DNA from: Nitrospirae bacterium JdFR-86
Lineage (GTDB): Bacteria > Nitrospirota > Thermodesulfovibrionia > Thermodesulfovibrionales > JdFR-86
Assembly (NCBI GenBank): GCA_002011815.1
Contig: MTOV01000024.1
Location: 73,943 to 110,957 of the forward strand
Direction: 5' to 3'
Length of the DNA: 37,015 nucleotides
The notes under the pieces are model-generated. The model ran no database searches. It had not been told where the DNA came from and was given only the letters and a program-made list of their open reading frames with translations. The translations under genes and the position numbers were made by a program. Below are positions 23,541 to 30,091 of this stretch, piece after piece (positions within the stretch are counted from its first letter, which is position 1; each line of letters begins with the position of its first letter).

Positions 23541-23963
23541 TTATGCGTTAACAACAAGCACGGGACAGGGGGCATGGTTTATCACTTTATTAATAATATT
23601 GTAAACGAAAAACCGCCTGAAAAACCCACCGCCTTTTCTTGCCCCTATCATAATAAGGTCGCATCCTTCTTCAGAAGCAACTTGACTTATGGTCTCTGAA
23701 ATATCACCCTTCTCCACCCTTATTTTCGCGAGGGCACCCTCTGCCCGTACAGTATCTTCAATCATAGAGACGGCCTCCGAACTGCATGAATTCAGTACGT
23801 CACTGATGTTTTTTATGCCCGTCAGGTCAATATCCCCTTCATACGGTGGTAGCACCTTTAGCACCGTGACCCAGCACTTCTCGTCATAGGCAAGGGCAAG
23901 ACCTTGTTTTAAGACCTCCATGGAGCCGTCTACCGCTATAAGTATCTTCCTGTATCCTTTCAT
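23541..23963 (-). CDS. Universal stress protein with degenerate nucleotide motif
   Basis: 140 residues. KILIAVDGS at the N-terminus and HAPCPVLVVN at the end are typical of the UspA fold. The ATP loop, however, reads GARKGGGFFRRFFVYNII, which lacks the final Gly-Ser/Thr of the G-2x-G-9x-G-S/T pattern and is unusually aromatic and basic. It may not bind ATP, or may bind a different ligand. It is the last gene of the TauE/stress operon, seven bases after the tandem Usp gene. Confidence 0.85.
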   Translation of the reverse strand: MKGYRKILIAVDGSMEVLKQGLALAYDEKCWVTVLKVLPPYEGDIDLTGIKNISDVLNSCSSEAVSMIEDTVRAEGALAKIRVEKGDISETISQVASEEGCDLIMIGARKGGGFFRRFFVYNIINKVINHAPCPVLVVNA

Positions 23964-23970
23964 ATCCTTA

Positions 23971-24834
23971 TTAACTCACTACCAGGACCGGAACGGTGGA
24001 ATAAGCGATCACCCGCTCCGTTGTGCTCCCCATTATCGCCCTGTTAACCCCTCTCCAGCCATAGCTGCCCATCACTATCAGATCACTTCTGAGACCATTT
24101 GCTATCTCCACAATCTTGTCCGCTACATGCCCTTCTTCTACAATGGTGCTCACCGAGGTGCCCTTCTGGTATGCCAGCATCTCTCCCTCGGAAACAATCT
24201 TTCTCGCTTCATCAAAAAGCTTCTCCTGTATCGAGGTTGTCTTGAAAAACTCAAGCATTTCCTCGTAACGCGGGATCACATAGAGAAGGGTTATTACAAT
24301 GTCATCGGTTTCGCATAGTTCAACCGCCTTGAGTAGTGCCCTTTTGCTTGATTCAGAGCCGTCAAAGGGTACGAGTATGGAGTCGTACCTGCCTGTGTAC
24401 CCATTGTAGGGGTGCTTTACTACCAGGACATCGCAGGGGGAATCGACGATAACTCCGGACGTCACGCTCCCCATTATCATCCTCTTAATGCCTTTCCTCC
24501 CGTATGTGCCCATAGCGATAAGGTCTGCTCCTTTTTCCCTTGCGATGTCCACTATTACCTCATGGGGCTCGCCTTCACGGACCACGATATCAATATCTAT
24601 GCCCAACTCAGAGGAGTATTGCTCTTGTGCCTGATAGCATGCCTTCTTTCCCATCTCGAGTCTCTTGTCAAGCTGTCCCGGGGAAATACTGAACTCTTCC
24701 GTATCGAAATAGACAGCGTGGACAAGAATAATTTTGCCCCCGTGATTTTTTACCCAGTGTGCTACCTCGATGAGTGCGGCCCTGCTGTATTCAGTGTCGT
24801 CAAAACCGACTAAAATGTTCTCGTATACTCTCAA
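23971..24834 (-). CDS. Tandem-domain universal stress protein
   Basis: 287 residues containing two UspA domains. Domain 1 begins with NILVGFDDTEYS and ends with GTYGRKGIKRMIMGSVT; domain 2 begins with SILVPFDGSESS and ends with GSYGWRGVNRAIMGSTTE. Both have an intact G-2x-G-9x-G-S/T loop. The start is TTG at 24834, overlapping the upstream TGA (TTGA), with GGAGG six bases before. Tandem Usp proteins are intramolecular dimers that bind ATP. The position between a TauE-associated membrane protein and another Usp suggests a cytoplasmic partner of the transporter. Confidence 0.9.
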   Translation of the reverse strand: MRVYENILVGFDDTEYSRAALIEVAHWVKNHGGKIILVHAVYFDTEEFSISPGQLDKRLEMGKKACYQAQEQYSSELGIDIDIVVREGEPHEVIVDIAREKGADLIAMGTYGRKGIKRMIMGSVTSGVIVDSPCDVLVVKHPYNGYTGRYDSILVPFDGSESSKRALLKAVELCETDDIVITLLYVIPRYEEMLEFFKTTSIQEKLFDEARKIVSEGEMLAYQKGTSVSTIVEEGHVADKIVEIANGLRSDLIVMGSYGWRGVNRAIMGSTTERVIAYSTVPVLVVS

Positions 24835-25616
24835 TGCGCACCTCCGCCTTTTCTGAACACCATGCCCACGCCGAAGCCAGCAGCCAGCGCTATGACTATA
24901 GAGAGCACACCGTACAGGGCACCCTTGTTCTTTGCCATGTCTGCCAGCAGTTTGACAAATCCTACCTGCTCGACAACCACCTTCGCCTCTGCTTTATCAA
25001 CCACCTTGCCGTCCTTCACGGCATAAACCGTGACGGTGTATGTGCCAGGTGGCACCTCGTAGGGCCAGTACATCTCGGTATAATAGGCCTCTCCGTCGTC
25101 TTTCCGCGTAAATGAGATATTACCGTAAGAAATTGCAAAGAGCCTTGAGGACTCTTTGTATTTCACCAGTTCTTTAAACCATCTGCTCTTGCCGTCTTCG
25201 CCCATGTCCGGGGTTATCTCTGCCTGCCGCTCTAACGCACGGTATCCGATTGCATACTTGTCTAACTCCTCAGGTGTGAGAATGTCCTCGAGCTTTTTGG
25301 TGCTCCTTATAAAATAGACGTTTGGCACATGCTCGAATGTAAGCTTGTCGACATTCATCCACAAAATTCCCGCTACCTTGTCCTTTCTTCTTAATACCTG
25401 GTGGCCCTCCGGAGAGGTGATTTTTATCACCAGATCAGTCCCCGGATCGGTCTCTCCGCTTACACTCACAATGCTCCCGTGATAAGTGAAGTTAACTTTT
25501 ATGTGGTCGTGATTCGTCTTTGCGGTAAGTTTGGCTAAAACAGCCACCGGGAAGAGACATAATACCGACAATGCAGTAGCAACAAGTATGAGTTTCTTGA
25601 AGTATGGATAATTCAT
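24831..25616 (-). CDS. TIGR02186-like membrane-anchored protein associated with TauE/SafE
   Basis: 261 residues. A signal peptide (about 1-28, ending VAVLA) is followed by a beta-rich periplasmic region beginning KTNHDHIKVNFTYHGS, a segment YWPYEVPPGTYTVTVYAVKD, and a single C-terminal membrane helix (LYGVLSIVIALAAGFGVGMV) with a short basic tail. This architecture matches the TIGR02186 family, which is recurrently found next to TauE/SafE permeases. The function is undetermined; a periplasmic accessory subunit of the permease is the simplest reading. Its ATG shares a base with the TauE stop (TAATG). Confidence 0.75.
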   Translation of the reverse strand: MNYPYFKKLILVATALSVLCLFPVAVLAKLTAKTNHDHIKVNFTYHGSIVSVSGETDPGTDLVIKITSPEGHQVLRRKDKVAGILWMNVDKLTFEHVPNVYFIRSTKKLEDILTPEELDKYAIGYRALERQAEITPDMGEDGKSRWFKELVKYKESSRLFAISYGNISFTRKDDGEAYYTEMYWPYEVPPGTYTVTVYAVKDGKVVDKAEAKVVVEQVGFVKLLADMAKNKGALYGVLSIVIALAAGFGVGMVFRKGGGAH

Positions 25617-26539
25617 TAATGACCTCCCATTGGTGAAAGTAGTAGGTCAGGCGTAAGTGTAAGGTCAAAGATTATTTTTACCGTGACAGCGAGCACTATC
25701 ATCGCAAGCAAAATCTTTAGCTGCTCGCCTTTCAGTCTTCTTCCAATCACCGCCCCTACCTGCGCTCCTATGGTCGAGCCCAAAAGAAGCAATACGGCAA
25801 GAGTAAAGTCCACCGTATGGTTTGTATAGGACTGAAGGAAAGTGACCTCAGTACATGTAAAAAGGATCTGGAAAAGGCTTGTCCCCACCACGACATGCAT
25901 GGGCATCCTCAGGAAATATACCATGACGGGTACCATCAAGAAGCCGCCGCCTACGCCCATCACTGCAGCCAGGATGCCCACAAGGCACCCGAACACCACA
26001 GGCACCAAGGCCGAGTGGGTAACTCCGGATTTTTCAAACCTGGTCTGGAAGGGAAGGGATTTGAGAAACCTCCCGAATTTTGAATCTGACTTTGGGCTCG
26101 CCTCTTTCCCGTCCTGGTCTTTCTTCCTTATGTTCGAAAGGCTCTCAAGGAACATGTATGTGCCCACGCCTCCAAGCATCAGCACATAGGTCAATTTGAT
26201 GACAAAGTCGGCGTTGCCCATCATCCTGAGGACTTTAATGGCTTGAACCCCTAAAAGTCCTCCCAAGAACCCTCCGGCAAGGAGAAAAAGGCCCATTTTA
26301 AAATCCACATTGCCCAGCCTCCAGTGAGCGTAAGTTCCTGAAGTGGAAGCCGCCACTATCTGGTTGGAGTCAGTCGCCGCAGCCACCGTCGGGGGAATGC
26401 CTATCATGATAAGAAGCGGGGTCATCAAAAACCCCCCTCCCACACCAAAAAGCCCTGAAAGCAGTCCAACTGCCAAACCAAGCCCTATAGGCAGGAATAT
26501 GTTAATACTCGTTAACGCTACCGGTAAATAAAGATACAC
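25616..26539 (-). CDS. TauE/SafE-family anion exporter (DUF81)
   Basis: 307 residues. Two homologous halves each carry the glycine motif, LFGVGGGFLMTPLLI and VMGVGGGFLMVPVMV. About eight membrane helices are visible, with a charged cytoplasmic loop near residues 130-165. The family moves sulfite, sulfonates or organic sulfur anions across the inner membrane, and occasionally other substrates. The start is GTG at 26539, placed by AAGGAGGG. The pairing with a TIGR02186 gene and Usp genes is distinctive. Substrate unknown. Confidence 0.88.
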   Translation of the reverse strand: MYLYLPVALTSINIFLPIGLGLAVGLLSGLFGVGGGFLMTPLLIMIGIPPTVAAATDSNQIVAASTSGTYAHWRLGNVDFKMGLFLLAGGFLGGLLGVQAIKVLRMMGNADFVIKLTYVLMLGGVGTYMFLESLSNIRKKDQDGKEASPKSDSKFGRFLKSLPFQTRFEKSGVTHSALVPVVFGCLVGILAAVMGVGGGFLMVPVMVYFLRMPMHVVVGTSLFQILFTCTEVTFLQSYTNHTVDFTLAVLLLLGSTIGAQVGAVIGRRLKGEQLKILLAMIVLAVTVKIIFDLTLTPDLLLSPMGGH

Positions 26540-26570
26540 TCAAAGCCCTCCTTTTTCTGACTGGATGATT

Positions 26571-27053
26571 TCAATGTGAAACTTGCCTCCTTTGCTGAGC
26601 CATCGTAACCACAGGACGCGATGAAGCCTTCATCAGCCGACTCAGTATGTTGCCGCTGCGTGTCACATTCGGGCTTAGCAGGACCATATCAATCCTGCTC
26701 TTCTCTTTCAGAAGGTCCTTTACCGCGGAAACCGTATCCATAAGCCCGGTGTGGATGCTTGCCCTGATGCCTGCGCCGTTGCATCTTTCCTGAAGATAGG
26801 CGTGGACAGCAGCAGTGTCTTTGCCTGATCTCGCACTCCCTGACATTACCTGTCTCGCTGTCTCGTGCTCGTTCGCCTCCGCGAAGGTAATTGCGGTCAT
26901 TAAGTCCTCAAACATCTCCCCTATATTCCTTTTATTAATCAAGAGTATCCTCAACTTCTGACCAAGCATGCTTGCAAGGTAAATGGCATAGGAAAGTCCT
27001 TCCTCAAGAGTCTCGTCCATATAGGTAACGAATAATATCTCTTTCTCTTTCAT
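26571..27053 (-). CDS. Divergent universal-stress-like protein, first gene of the sigma-54 operon
   Basis: 160 residues from the ATG at 27053, which has GAGGGGTG at a normal distance upstream; a GTG at 27065 is less favoured. It begins KEKEILFVTYMDETLEEG, a Usp-like Rossmann start, but lacks the ATP-binding glycine loop (the C-terminal end is SRPVVTMAQQRRQ). It is the first gene downstream of the sigma-54 promoter. Role unknown; a Usp-derived regulator or ligand-binding protein. Confidence 0.7.
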   Translation of the reverse strand: MKEKEILFVTYMDETLEEGLSYAIYLASMLGQKLRILLINKRNIGEMFEDLMTAITFAEANEHETARQVMSGSARSGKDTAAVHAYLQERCNGAGIRASIHTGLMDTVSAVKDLLKEKSRIDMVLLSPNVTRSGNILSRLMKASSRPVVTMAQQRRQVSH

Positions 27054-27083
27054 CGCTTTTTTCACCCCTCAGTGACTTAAAGG

Positions 27084-27098
27084 GCAAAAATGGTGCCA
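27084..27098 (-). promoter_or_regulatory. Sigma-54 promoter of the Usp-TauE operon
   Basis: The minus strand reads TGGCAC-CATTT-TTGC, a consensus -24/-12 sigma-54 promoter with GG and GC ten bases apart. Transcription would start near 27072, just before the Shine-Dalgarno of the first Usp gene. The gene directly upstream encodes a sigma-54 activator, which makes the assignment strong. Confidence 0.85.
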
Positions 27099-27152
27099 GA
27101 GATAAGTTGTTGATTTTAAAGGAAATTAAAAAGGTAGGGAGATAAGATGTGT

Positions 27153-27164
27153 TTCAAATTTGAA
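27153..27164. promoter_or_regulatory. Candidate enhancer site for the NtrC-family regulator
   Basis: TTCAAATTTGAA is a perfect 12-bp palindrome, inside the wider GTTTCAAATTTGAAC (27151-27165). Its centre is about 86 bp upstream of the predicted sigma-54 start, a normal activator-binding distance. A similar but imperfect copy lies at 27328-27342 within the regulator's coding end. Confidence 0.5.
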
Positions 27165-27176
27165 CGGAGCTGGACG

Positions 27177-28508
27177 CTACTCGTTCTTAAGCATCCGCCA
27201 GAGACTGGTCCTTGAGATGCCGAGGAGCCTTGCGGCCTCTGCCTTATTGCCTCCCAGCAGCTCAACAACCGACCGCACATACTCTTTGACCAGTTCTTCG
27301 ACAGGCTTGATTTTGTCAGGCTCGAGTGTTTCAATTTGGAACATTTTAATTGTTTGAGGGAGGGAATCAGGCGTAATAAGGGATCCTTTCTCGAGGATAA
27401 TGGCCCGTTCGATGATATTTTCCAGTTCCCGGACGTTTCCGGGAAAACTGTAGTTCTTCAAGATTTCCATAGCCTCTTTCGTAAAGCCGGTGATGTTCTT
27501 CCGGTAATCAGGAAGGTGTTTCTTGAGGAAAAACCTGCTTAATGGCTCAATATCACTTTTCCTTTCCCTGAGAGGCGGGATGTATATTTCCATGACGTTC
27601 AGCCTGTAGTACAGGTCCCGCCTGAACCTGCCGCTGGCTATCATCCCGGCAATGTTCTGGTTTGTCGCTGCAATGAACCTGACATCGACCCTGATAGGCT
27701 TTGTTCCGCCCACGCGGAAAAACTCCTTCTCCTCAATTACCTTTAACAGTTTCGCCTGCAGGCCCGGAGACATCTCGGCTATCTCATCGAGAAAAAGGGA
27801 ACCGGTGTCAGCTATTTCAATAAGCCCTTGCTTCTGTGCAACAGCCCCGGTAAAGGCGCCTTTTTCATGCCCGAACAACTCACTTGCAAGCAGCTCTTCC
27901 GTAAAAGTGGCACAGTTTATAGACAGAAAAGGCTTGTCCTTTCTGGGGCTGGAAAAGTGGATTATTTTCGCCAGCAGGTTTTTGCCCACCCCGCTTTCGC
28001 CTGTGAGAAGCACTGAGCAGTCGGAGTCCTGTATGCTCTGGATTATCTCGATGATATTCTTCATGCTTTCGCTTTCTGCGATAATGGAGATGTCTTTTTG
28101 GATGTTGAGGAAGGTCTTCAAAGCGATATTTTCTCTTTTTAATATCCTCTGGTCATATACTTTATTCACCTTGAGTATCAGCTCGTCCAAGTCAAAGGGT
28201 TTAGGCACATAATCGGACGCCCCTTTCTTCATTGCTTCCACCGCGGAGTTTATGCTCCCGAAGCCGGTTATGACTATCACCTCGGTCTCAGGGGCTATCT
28301 TTTTTACACGGGAGAGAAGTTCAATGCCGTCCATGCCGGGCATCTTTATGTCTGCGATGAGGACGTCATAACTGTCCTTTTCTACCTTCTCAAGCGCATC
28401 GAGGCCATTACCAGTCCCCTCGACCTCATACCCCTCGTTTTGCAGCGCACGCAGGAGATGTTTTCTGGTTATCTCCTCGTCCTCGGCTATAAGAACCTTA
28501 AACGCCAT
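27177..28508 (-). CDS. NtrC-family sigma-54-dependent response regulator
   Basis: 443 residues. The receiver has D10 and phospho-acceptor D53 (YDVLIADIKMPGMDG). The AAA+ domain has Walker A LTGESGVGKNLLAKII, the sigma-54 contact loop HEKGAFTGA, Walker B GSLFLDEIAEM, and the arginine region FRRDLYYRLNV. The C-terminal Fis-type helix-turn-helix is NKAEAARLLGISRTSLWRML. It lies two bases after the sensor kinase gene and about 120 bp before the sigma-54-controlled operon. It would activate sigma-54 RNA polymerase after phosphorylation. Confidence 0.95.
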   Translation of the reverse strand: MAFKVLIAEDEEITRKHLLRALQNEGYEVEGTGNGLDALEKVEKDSYDVLIADIKMPGMDGIELLSRVKKIAPETEVIVITGFGSINSAVEAMKKGASDYVPKPFDLDELILKVNKVYDQRILKRENIALKTFLNIQKDISIIAESESMKNIIEIIQSIQDSDCSVLLTGESGVGKNLLAKIIHFSSPRKDKPFLSINCATFTEELLASELFGHEKGAFTGAVAQKQGLIEIADTGSLFLDEIAEMSPGLQAKLLKVIEEKEFFRVGGTKPIRVDVRFIAATNQNIAGMIASGRFRRDLYYRLNVMEIYIPPLRERKSDIEPLSRFFLKKHLPDYRKNITGFTKEAMEILKNYSFPGNVRELENIIERAIILEKGSLITPDSLPQTIKMFQIETLEPDKIKPVEELVKEYVRSVVELLGGNKAEAARLLGISRTSLWRMLKNE

Positions 28509-28510
28509 AT

Positions 28511-30091
28511 TTACGCGTTTCCTTTCTTTGGCAAGGTAATCTCAAAAGCCGTGCCCACGCCTTCCTCACTTACCACGGATATATTACCATTATGTTTCTT
28601 GATTATATTCAAAACAATCGCAAGTCCCAAGCCAGTGCCTTTTTCCTTTTTAGTGAAAAACGGGTCGAAGATCTTTTCTCTGTCCTCTTCAGACATTCCC
28701 TTGCCGGAGTCTGAGACCCAGATTTTCACACTGTCCTCTTCAGGGACCACCTTTACCACAAGGTCTCCTCCATTTTCCATGGCTGCCACAGCATTGGCAA
28801 ACAGGTTCACAAACACCCTTTCAATCTGCCCGGGGTCAGCATAGAGTGTAACTCCCTGAGGGACTGTGTCTAGAGTAAACCGGATTTTCCCTGTGTCTAC
28901 AGACTTTTTCAGGTGGGCAAAGGCCTCTGTTATAAGGCTGTTCAGTTCGACTTTTTGCAACTGGGGCTCCCGCTCCCTGGCAAATTCAAGGAGGTCTGCA
29001 ACAATTCCCTTAACCCTGACCGTCTGCCCGACGATATCGTCAACAATTTCTCTCATTGAGGGCGAAGCATCGTCGCTGAGCTGTTTCCTAAGCATCTGAA
29101 CGGATATATAAATATTGTTCAGGGGATTGTTCAGCTCATGGGCAATGCCAGAGGCCAGCGTCCCTATAGCGGCCAGTTTCTTGGACTGAAGCAGTTCCTG
29201 GTTTTTCTCGCGGAGTTCCTCTTCCCACTGGGCAAGCTGTTCGTCCATGCGGTTGAATTTTTCAACAAGTATTCCTACCTCATCCTGACTGCTACCTTCC
29301 GGGCGCGGAGCTGGAATATTGGACACATATCTGTTCCCGGTCTTCTCCACCAAATCCATCAGGGTCTTCAGGCGTTTCACCACATCATTGCTGATAAAAA
29401 AGAGCGCTCCGAGGCCAATAACTAAGAAAAGCGGAAAGATCACCAGTATCGCTAACTGCGATATGTGGATGCCTCTTTCGACATTTTCCCTTGCGGACTT
29501 GTCCAGTTTCTTTGAGGCGGTAATAATGCCCTCGCCGTTCTTTCTCAGCAGGTTTATCTCCGAGTCGAGCTTCCTCAGCTTCGTAATGAGTGGATGTCCC
29601 GAAGGCAGTGAAAAAATATCTTCCAGGAACTCCGCAGCGTAAAGCGGCCTGTCAAGGAAGTTTGCCTCAATGAGGGGAAGGAACTTGGCATACGGATCAG
29701 AGGATGCCCTCATGCCCTTGAGTTCATCTGATATCTCCTTCGACAGTCTTTCTATTCGTCTGAACCTCTCTTCATACTCATGAACGAGCTCTCTTAAAGG
29801 GGACGCTTTACCCGGAGCCTTTGCCTGAAGGCTGTTTGCAATGTTTTTCAGCTGATCTAGATAATTATATATCGCCTCCGTTTCTCCTCTAGTTGCAGGA
29901 TAAAGAAAGAAATTTTTTTCGTGTCTTCTGAGTTGAAGGGACTTGCTTCTCACAGTGTCGGTTATCTCAAGAAACCGCATTTCATTTTTGATCTGGACGA
30001 AGTTTACATATTCAAAGGCTGCGAGGATAGCGATAATGAAGGCACTGATGAAAAAACCAAAGATTATTTTCTTCCGTAACGACATTAACAT
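28511..30091 (-). CDS. Membrane sensor histidine kinase, NtrB-like
   Basis: 526 residues. Two membrane helices (about 9-27 and 205-228) flank a periplasmic helical sensor of about 175 residues containing RRHEKNFFLYP, a sequence typical of HBM/four-helix-bundle sensors of small organic ligands. A HAMP-like linker, a HisKA with H318 (IAHELNNPLNN), and a HATPase with VSDSGKGMSEED and GTGLGLAIV follow. It phosphorylates the adjacent regulator. The start may be ATG 30085 rather than 30091, because TATAAT lies 7 nt before it. Ligand unknown. Confidence 0.93.
   Translation of the reverse strand: MLMSLRKKIIFGFFISAFIIAILAAFEYVNFVQIKNEMRFLEITDTVRSKSLQLRRHEKNFFLYPATRGETEAIYNYLDQLKNIANSLQAKAPGKASPLRELVHEYEERFRRIERLSKEISDELKGMRASSDPYAKFLPLIEANFLDRPLYAAEFLEDIFSLPSGHPLITKLRKLDSEINLLRKNGEGIITASKKLDKSARENVERGIHISQLAILVIFPLFLVIGLGALFFISNDVVKRLKTLMDLVEKTGNRYVSNIPAPRPEGSSQDEVGILVEKFNRMDEQLAQWEEELREKNQELLQSKKLAAIGTLASGIAHELNNPLNNIYISVQMLRKQLSDDASPSMREIVDDIVGQTVRVKGIVADLLEFAREREPQLQKVELNSLITEAFAHLKKSVDTGKIRFTLDTVPQGVTLYADPGQIERVFVNLFANAVAAMENGGDLVVKVVPEEDSVKIWVSDSGKGMSEEDREKIFDPFFTKKEKGTGLGLAIVLNIIKKHNGNISVVSEEGVGTAFEITLPKKGNA

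Follow-up and report, generated by a model that had tools for sequence, protein, structure and literature searches.

Organization of the locus

The locus lies on the minus strand of the window, by which we mean the whole stretch of 37,015 nucleotides that was analysed. Seven genes follow one another in the order HK, RR, U1, TauE, PF09608 gene, UU, and U3, and the features are as follows:

28511..30091, minus strand: HK, membrane sensor histidine kinase with HisKA and HATPase_c domains (Pfam)
27177..28508, minus strand: RR, NtrC-family response regulator with receiver, sigma-54 activation domain containing GAFTGA, and Fis-type HTH
27151..27165, minus strand: putative UAS, the enhancer-like palindrome GTTCAAATTTGAAAC, conserved
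27103..27115, minus strand: IHF-consensus-like site AATCAACAACTTA with an A+T-rich flank upstream
27084..27098, minus strand: predicted sigma-54 -24/-12 promoter TGGCACCATTTTTGC, exact match, conserved
26571..27053, minus strand: U1, divergent protein of predicted Usp fold with an inserted TPR-like helical hairpin (MTAITFAEANEHETAR) and without the ATP motif
25616..26539, minus strand: TauE/SafE (TSUP) permease (PF01925)
24831..25616, minus strand: PF09608 (Alph_Pro_TM / TIGR02186-like) protein (Pfam and predicted structure)
23971..24834, minus strand: UU, tandem Usp (PF00582) with the ATP motif kept in both halves
23541..23963, minus strand: U3, single Usp (PF00582) with a degenerate ATP motif

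All seven genes of the initial annotation were recovered in the same order and at the same coordinates, and its description of overlapping or nearly touching genes was also correct, with neighbours in the five-gene operon (U1 to U3) overlapping or separated by no more than about 31 nt. Two alternative starts were found for U1, GTG at 27065 and ATG at 27053, and the transcription start predicted from the position of the -24/-12 box lies near 27072, so the ATG is the likelier start.

Pfam analysis of RR identified PF00072, PF00158, and PF02954, and GAFTGA was read in the translation, so RR has the receiver, the activation domain with GAFTGA, and the Fis-type HTH of a sigma-54-dependent NtrC-type regulator. 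NCBIfam matches of both HK and RR were all below cut-off. The N-terminal sensor region of HK is about 175 residues long and helical, and it contains a conserved LQLRRHEKNFFLY. An HBM-like domain had been suggested for this region, and we rejected that identity after Pfam and PDB profile searches gave it no support: HBM (PF16591) was not detected by Pfam at E values up to 10 in the window protein and three orthologues, HBM, 4HB, and CHASE3 gave no match, the helical periplasmic region matched no known sensor family in Pfam or PDB profile searches, and its helical PDB matches were unspecific.

Conservation of the operon in Nitrospirota

Profiles made from the window proteins served to annotate the loci. 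PF09608 was present in 25 of 61 relatives and in 80 of the 346 genomes of the phylum, and TauE adjoined the PF09608 gene in every one of the 81 non-duplicate Nitrospirota loci. All five genes were found in 41 of the 64 loci uncut by contig ends, and RR lay upstream in 30 of these 41 (39/81 loci overall). U3 came first rather than last in a few loci (L037, L040, L045). A search of other genomes for the gene order and the -24/-12 box, which had been proposed as a check, showed both to be conserved across the order, the class, and the phylum, so the idea withstood the gene-order part of the refuting condition set for it, a gene order confined to close relatives. The conserved gene order and box support the earlier suggestion of a sigma-54 two-component circuit dedicated to this operon, and judged from sequence, such a circuit very probably operates here.

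The sigma-54 promoter and its upstream elements

The exact TGGCAC-N5-TTGC box TGGCACCATTTTTGC is the sole exact -24/-12 match in the window and lies between RR and U1, where the initial annotation had placed a consensus sigma-54 promoter. Of the 53 orthologous upstream regions, 41 carried the box with at most one mismatch, where 0.008 would be expected per region, and 20 carried it without any mismatch, where 0.0005 would be expected; both expected frequencies were derived from flanking sequence. Thus, the occurrence of the box is not due to chance. The box has the -24 GG/-12 GC consensus of a sigma-54 promoter and is conserved in orthologues, and RpoN is encoded in the genome. The other 12 of the 53 operons had more than one mismatch in the box and no recognisable -24/-12 element, and no sigma-54 site was found in the f3 family loci L047, L048, and L050, in which the transporter is present.

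On reading the orthologous upstream regions, we saw a conserved enhancer-like palindrome, GTTCAnATnTGAAAC or GTTCATATTCTAAAC, whose centre is 57-62 bp upstream of the -24 box (TGGC). The strict palindrome pattern was present in 40 of 53 orthologous regions (shuffle frequency 0.0008 per region), a count that is descriptive, since the palindrome was discovered in the same 53 regions. In the upstream regions of 34 loci, the spacing between palindrome and promoter ranged from 57 to 62 bp with peaks at 57 and 62, and it seems tied to two palindrome forms, TTCTAAAC and TCTGAAAC. The IHF consensus is WATCAA-N4-TTR, and an IHF-like element lay between the palindrome and the -24 box in 28 of 53 regions (relaxed pattern, counted without a control).

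The combined UAS-spacer-promoter pattern matched 33 of 177 genomes of the order (backward-pattern control, 2 matches) and 36 of 346 genomes of the phylum (backward-pattern control, 1 match), and these scans gauge specificity rather than giving an independent prediction, because many of the matched genomes were among those whose loci had supplied the pattern. There was usually one site per genome, mostly at the Usp-TauE operon, and no site was found among the many listed genomes of families f22, f29, f30, and f32. Within the genome that contains the window, a palindrome search allowing two mismatches stayed at background (20 matches versus 33 for the backward control), so we claim no wider regulon there.

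The same promoter pattern was found in two genomes upstream of a Usp-Usp-SulP sulfate permease operon (L184, L186) and in other genomes before a receiver gene (L185, L187), near which a CBS protein, a member of the Na+:sulfate symporter family, and other membrane proteins are encoded. Paralogous HK-RR-U1'-TauE'-Usp modules (L042, L043, L077, L035) showed, by eye, a related palindrome, an A+T-rich spacer, and a -24/-12-like box. A second composite match, at G000:C1:231828-231900 (L183), precedes the gene of a secreted PEP-CTERM-like protein and has an HK-RR pair in its vicinity, and we treated it as another regulator's site or a chance match.

The transporter pair and its possible link to sulfur

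TauE matched PF01925 with an E value of 1.6e-52 (179 bits, cut-off 32.6). Its partner had been called TIGR02186-like, which is right at the level of the Pfam family, where it scored 198 bits against PF09608, above cut-off, and goes too far for the TIGR02186 equivalog of NCBIfam, where it reached 104 bits, below the cut-off of 255. In the predicted structure of this protein, a hydrophobic helix lies at the N terminus and a transmembrane helix at the C terminus, and the beta-sandwich region between them, which has a helical insert, is probably periplasmic. In a fold search, the resemblance to beta-sandwich or arrestin-like structures was weak, and no match reached E <= 0.001.

The window TauE shares about 50% identity with its TIGR02186-linked counterpart in Alphaproteobacteria and about 32% with other plasmid-borne TauE proteins, values that make the TauE-PF09608 pair look old. 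No Usp genes were annotated beside the alphaproteobacterial TauE-TIGR02186 pair in the three plasmid loci examined, so the transporter does not generally depend on Usps.

dsrA was found in 73 of 80 PF09608-positive genomes versus 83 of 266 others (Fisher p = 8e-23, uncorrected for phylogeny), the overlap being counted by hand from two genome lists, and this phylum-wide association between dsrA and the operon is confounded by descent. The comparison was made at the phylum level because dsrA is near-universal within the order (60 of 61 genomes matched) and is useless there as a discriminator. Sulfite exporters of the TauE type have been reported both for Cupriavidus (Weinitschke 2007, cited in PMC3949148) and for the bigR operon (PMC5823870).

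Usp proteins of the operon

Three universal stress proteins had been assigned to the operon. For UU and U3 this was confirmed by PF00582 matches above cut-off (212 and 73 bits), while U1 matched nothing in Pfam or NCBIfam and can be called a Usp only by its predicted fold and by a paralogue in L042 that matches PF00582. Profile comparison (hhalign) of U1 with U3 and UU gave weak similarity. The AlphaFold prediction of U1 was of fair confidence (pLDDT 80), and its best PDB matches in Foldseek were nearly all Usp proteins, TeaD among them (top E 4e-5, TM about 0.5-0.57), so the model points to a Usp fold for U1. The ATP motif G-2x-G-9x-G(S/T) is invariant or nearly so in both halves of UU across 38 aligned sequences; it is lost in U3 and not seen in U1. 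In the linker of UU, nearly all relatives have CxxC, and the window protein has Y..Y at residues 143 and 146 (alignment A5).

The short TPR-like hairpin motif M[ST]A[IV]xFAE[EA]GExxTA[RK] recurs in unrelated contexts: it is inserted in U1 and is placed N-terminal to other Usp-like proteins and C-terminal to CheY-like receivers, while a small protein has it in tandem and a PEP-utilising, PPDK-like enzyme carries it within its PPDK_N domain. Its places are 26571-27053 of the window, L194, L201, L203, L214, L197, L199, L193, L206, L217, and L090:3724-5796, and the backward-pattern control gave zero matches in 41 genomes.

Comparison with known systems

Like the NtrC-family systems AtoSC, ZraSR, and NtrBC, the locus has a kinase and a receiver-AAA+-Fis regulator with GAFTGA, together with an upstream palindromic site, an IHF-like element, and a -24/-12 promoter. 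Unlike those systems, HK and RR fall under every NCBIfam equivalog cut-off and the sensor domain is distinct, the putative site is only about 60 bp upstream, and there is one main target operon. The TauE/SafE sulfite exporters (TauE of Cupriavidus necator and the bigR-operon protein) are likewise PF01925 permeases of a sulfur-metabolising host, but here the permease, a putative exporter, is paired with a PF09608 subunit and three Usps. The alphaproteobacterial TauE-TIGR02186 pair also has adjacent genes and a TauE of about 50% identity, but no Usp genes were listed beside it in the three loci, and the PF09608 protein of the window falls under the TIGR02186 cut-off. TeaD of Halomonas elongata, which modulates the TRAP transporter TeaABC, is an ATP-binding Usp encoded with a transporter as well, but that system has a single Usp and a TRAP transporter, whereas here three Usps, two of them without an ATP site, accompany a TSUP permease.

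All parts of the locus belong to known families. What seems new is the way in which they are combined, together with the conservation of this arrangement across the phylum and the regulatory site now defined for it. The open-access literature that we searched, which leaves most subscription journals outside, contained no description of Usp-TauE-TIGR02186 operons or of Usp-TSUP coupling under sigma-54, in agreement with the initial annotation, which had called such coupling not a textbook arrangement.

Proposed mechanism and alternatives

We propose that an NtrC-type switch drives a TauE-PF09608 exporter operon with Usp regulators, and we give this overall reading a probability of roughly 0.55. 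The sequence itself shows the genes and their order, the promoter, the conserved palindrome and its near-fixed spacing, the ATP motifs, and the predicted folds, and the proposal is built on these. The membrane kinase would detect a signal via its helical sensor region and phosphorylate RR, which would bind GTTCAnATnTGAAAC, the palindrome that lies some 60 bp before the -24 box. Bending of the A+T-rich spacer is probably the work of IHF or a protein like it, and sigma-54 RNA polymerase would then transcribe U1-TauE-PF09608-UU-U3. The product would be a two-component TSUP transporter in which the TauE permease is joined by a beta-sandwich partner that is anchored in the membrane and probably periplasmic. 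This transporter most likely exports a sulfur oxyanion, with sulfite as the best guess, from cells with the Dsr pathway. We consider the chances of sulfur-oxyanion export by this pair to be about even. The co-expressed Usps may regulate the transporter much as TeaD, a Usp that offers the precedent, modulates its own (PMC9006882), with UU reporting the ATP or energy state and the ATP-site-less U1 and U3 acting as partner or docking subunits, and this gating is a tentative proposal.

The circuit and operon could be real and the permease could import or export some other small anion, such as thiosulfate, sulfoacetate, or organic acids, with the kinase sensing that ligand. This is quite possible, though it is not our favoured account: TSUP proteins are functionally diverse with widely varying substrates, the TauE of A. 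fulgidus has been proposed as a sulfite importer (PMC3949148), and the Salipiger TauE-TIGR02186 pair adjoins tripartite tricarboxylate transporter and sulfatase genes, but the dsrA association and the Usp-SulP operon under the same promoter grammar favour sulfur oxyanions.

In another account, which we regard as credible if rather less than probable, the Usps would have no contact with the transporter and would be general energy- or redox-stress proteins that are co-induced with it, so that the operon would be a stress regulon. Usp genes are commonly stress-induced, Usp-like and receiver proteins with the hairpin motif are found free-standing away from the transporter, and 8 of 64 TauE-PF09608 loci have none of U1, UU, and U3. 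Against this, the order of the three distinct Usp types and their place next to one transporter are maintained throughout the phylum, and other sulfate-type transporters (SulP and a second TauE) also accompany Usp genes.

It is distinctly improbable that the box and palindrome owe their conservation to something else, such as binding of the palindrome by a different regulator with the adjacent HK-RR acting elsewhere. L027 and L031 keep the palindrome with no HK-RR just upstream in the fetched flank, and several paralogous HK-RR pairs per genome are possible, but RR is upstream in 30 uncut five-gene loci, and the paralogous RR-U1' modules have a related palindrome in the same layout, as expected of related NtrC-type regulators.

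With the switch-driven exporter operon as the preferred reading, the locus represents a phylum-wide genetic link between Usps, few of which have an established molecular role, and one type of transporter, with a dedicated switch and a defined DNA site. If the reading is true, Usp gating of a transporter becomes directly testable, and the operon would offer uncultured dsrAB-bearing Nitrospirota a likely means of dealing with sulfite or related anions. A broader and unlikely extension is that the sigma-54 Usp-transporter modules of Nitrospirota form a paralogous family sharing one promoter grammar. Usps would then be ATP-reading and docking subunits of sulfur-oxyanion transporters, and the portable hairpin would tie U1, the Usp-like proteins, the receivers, and the PPDK-like enzyme to a common partner.

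A further observation concerned the neighbourhood of the operon: in 24 loci (for example L027:10679-13511), a conserved MshEN-DUF202 membrane protein pair is encoded near it, and this pair often precedes a HAMP histidine kinase and a single-domain receiver.
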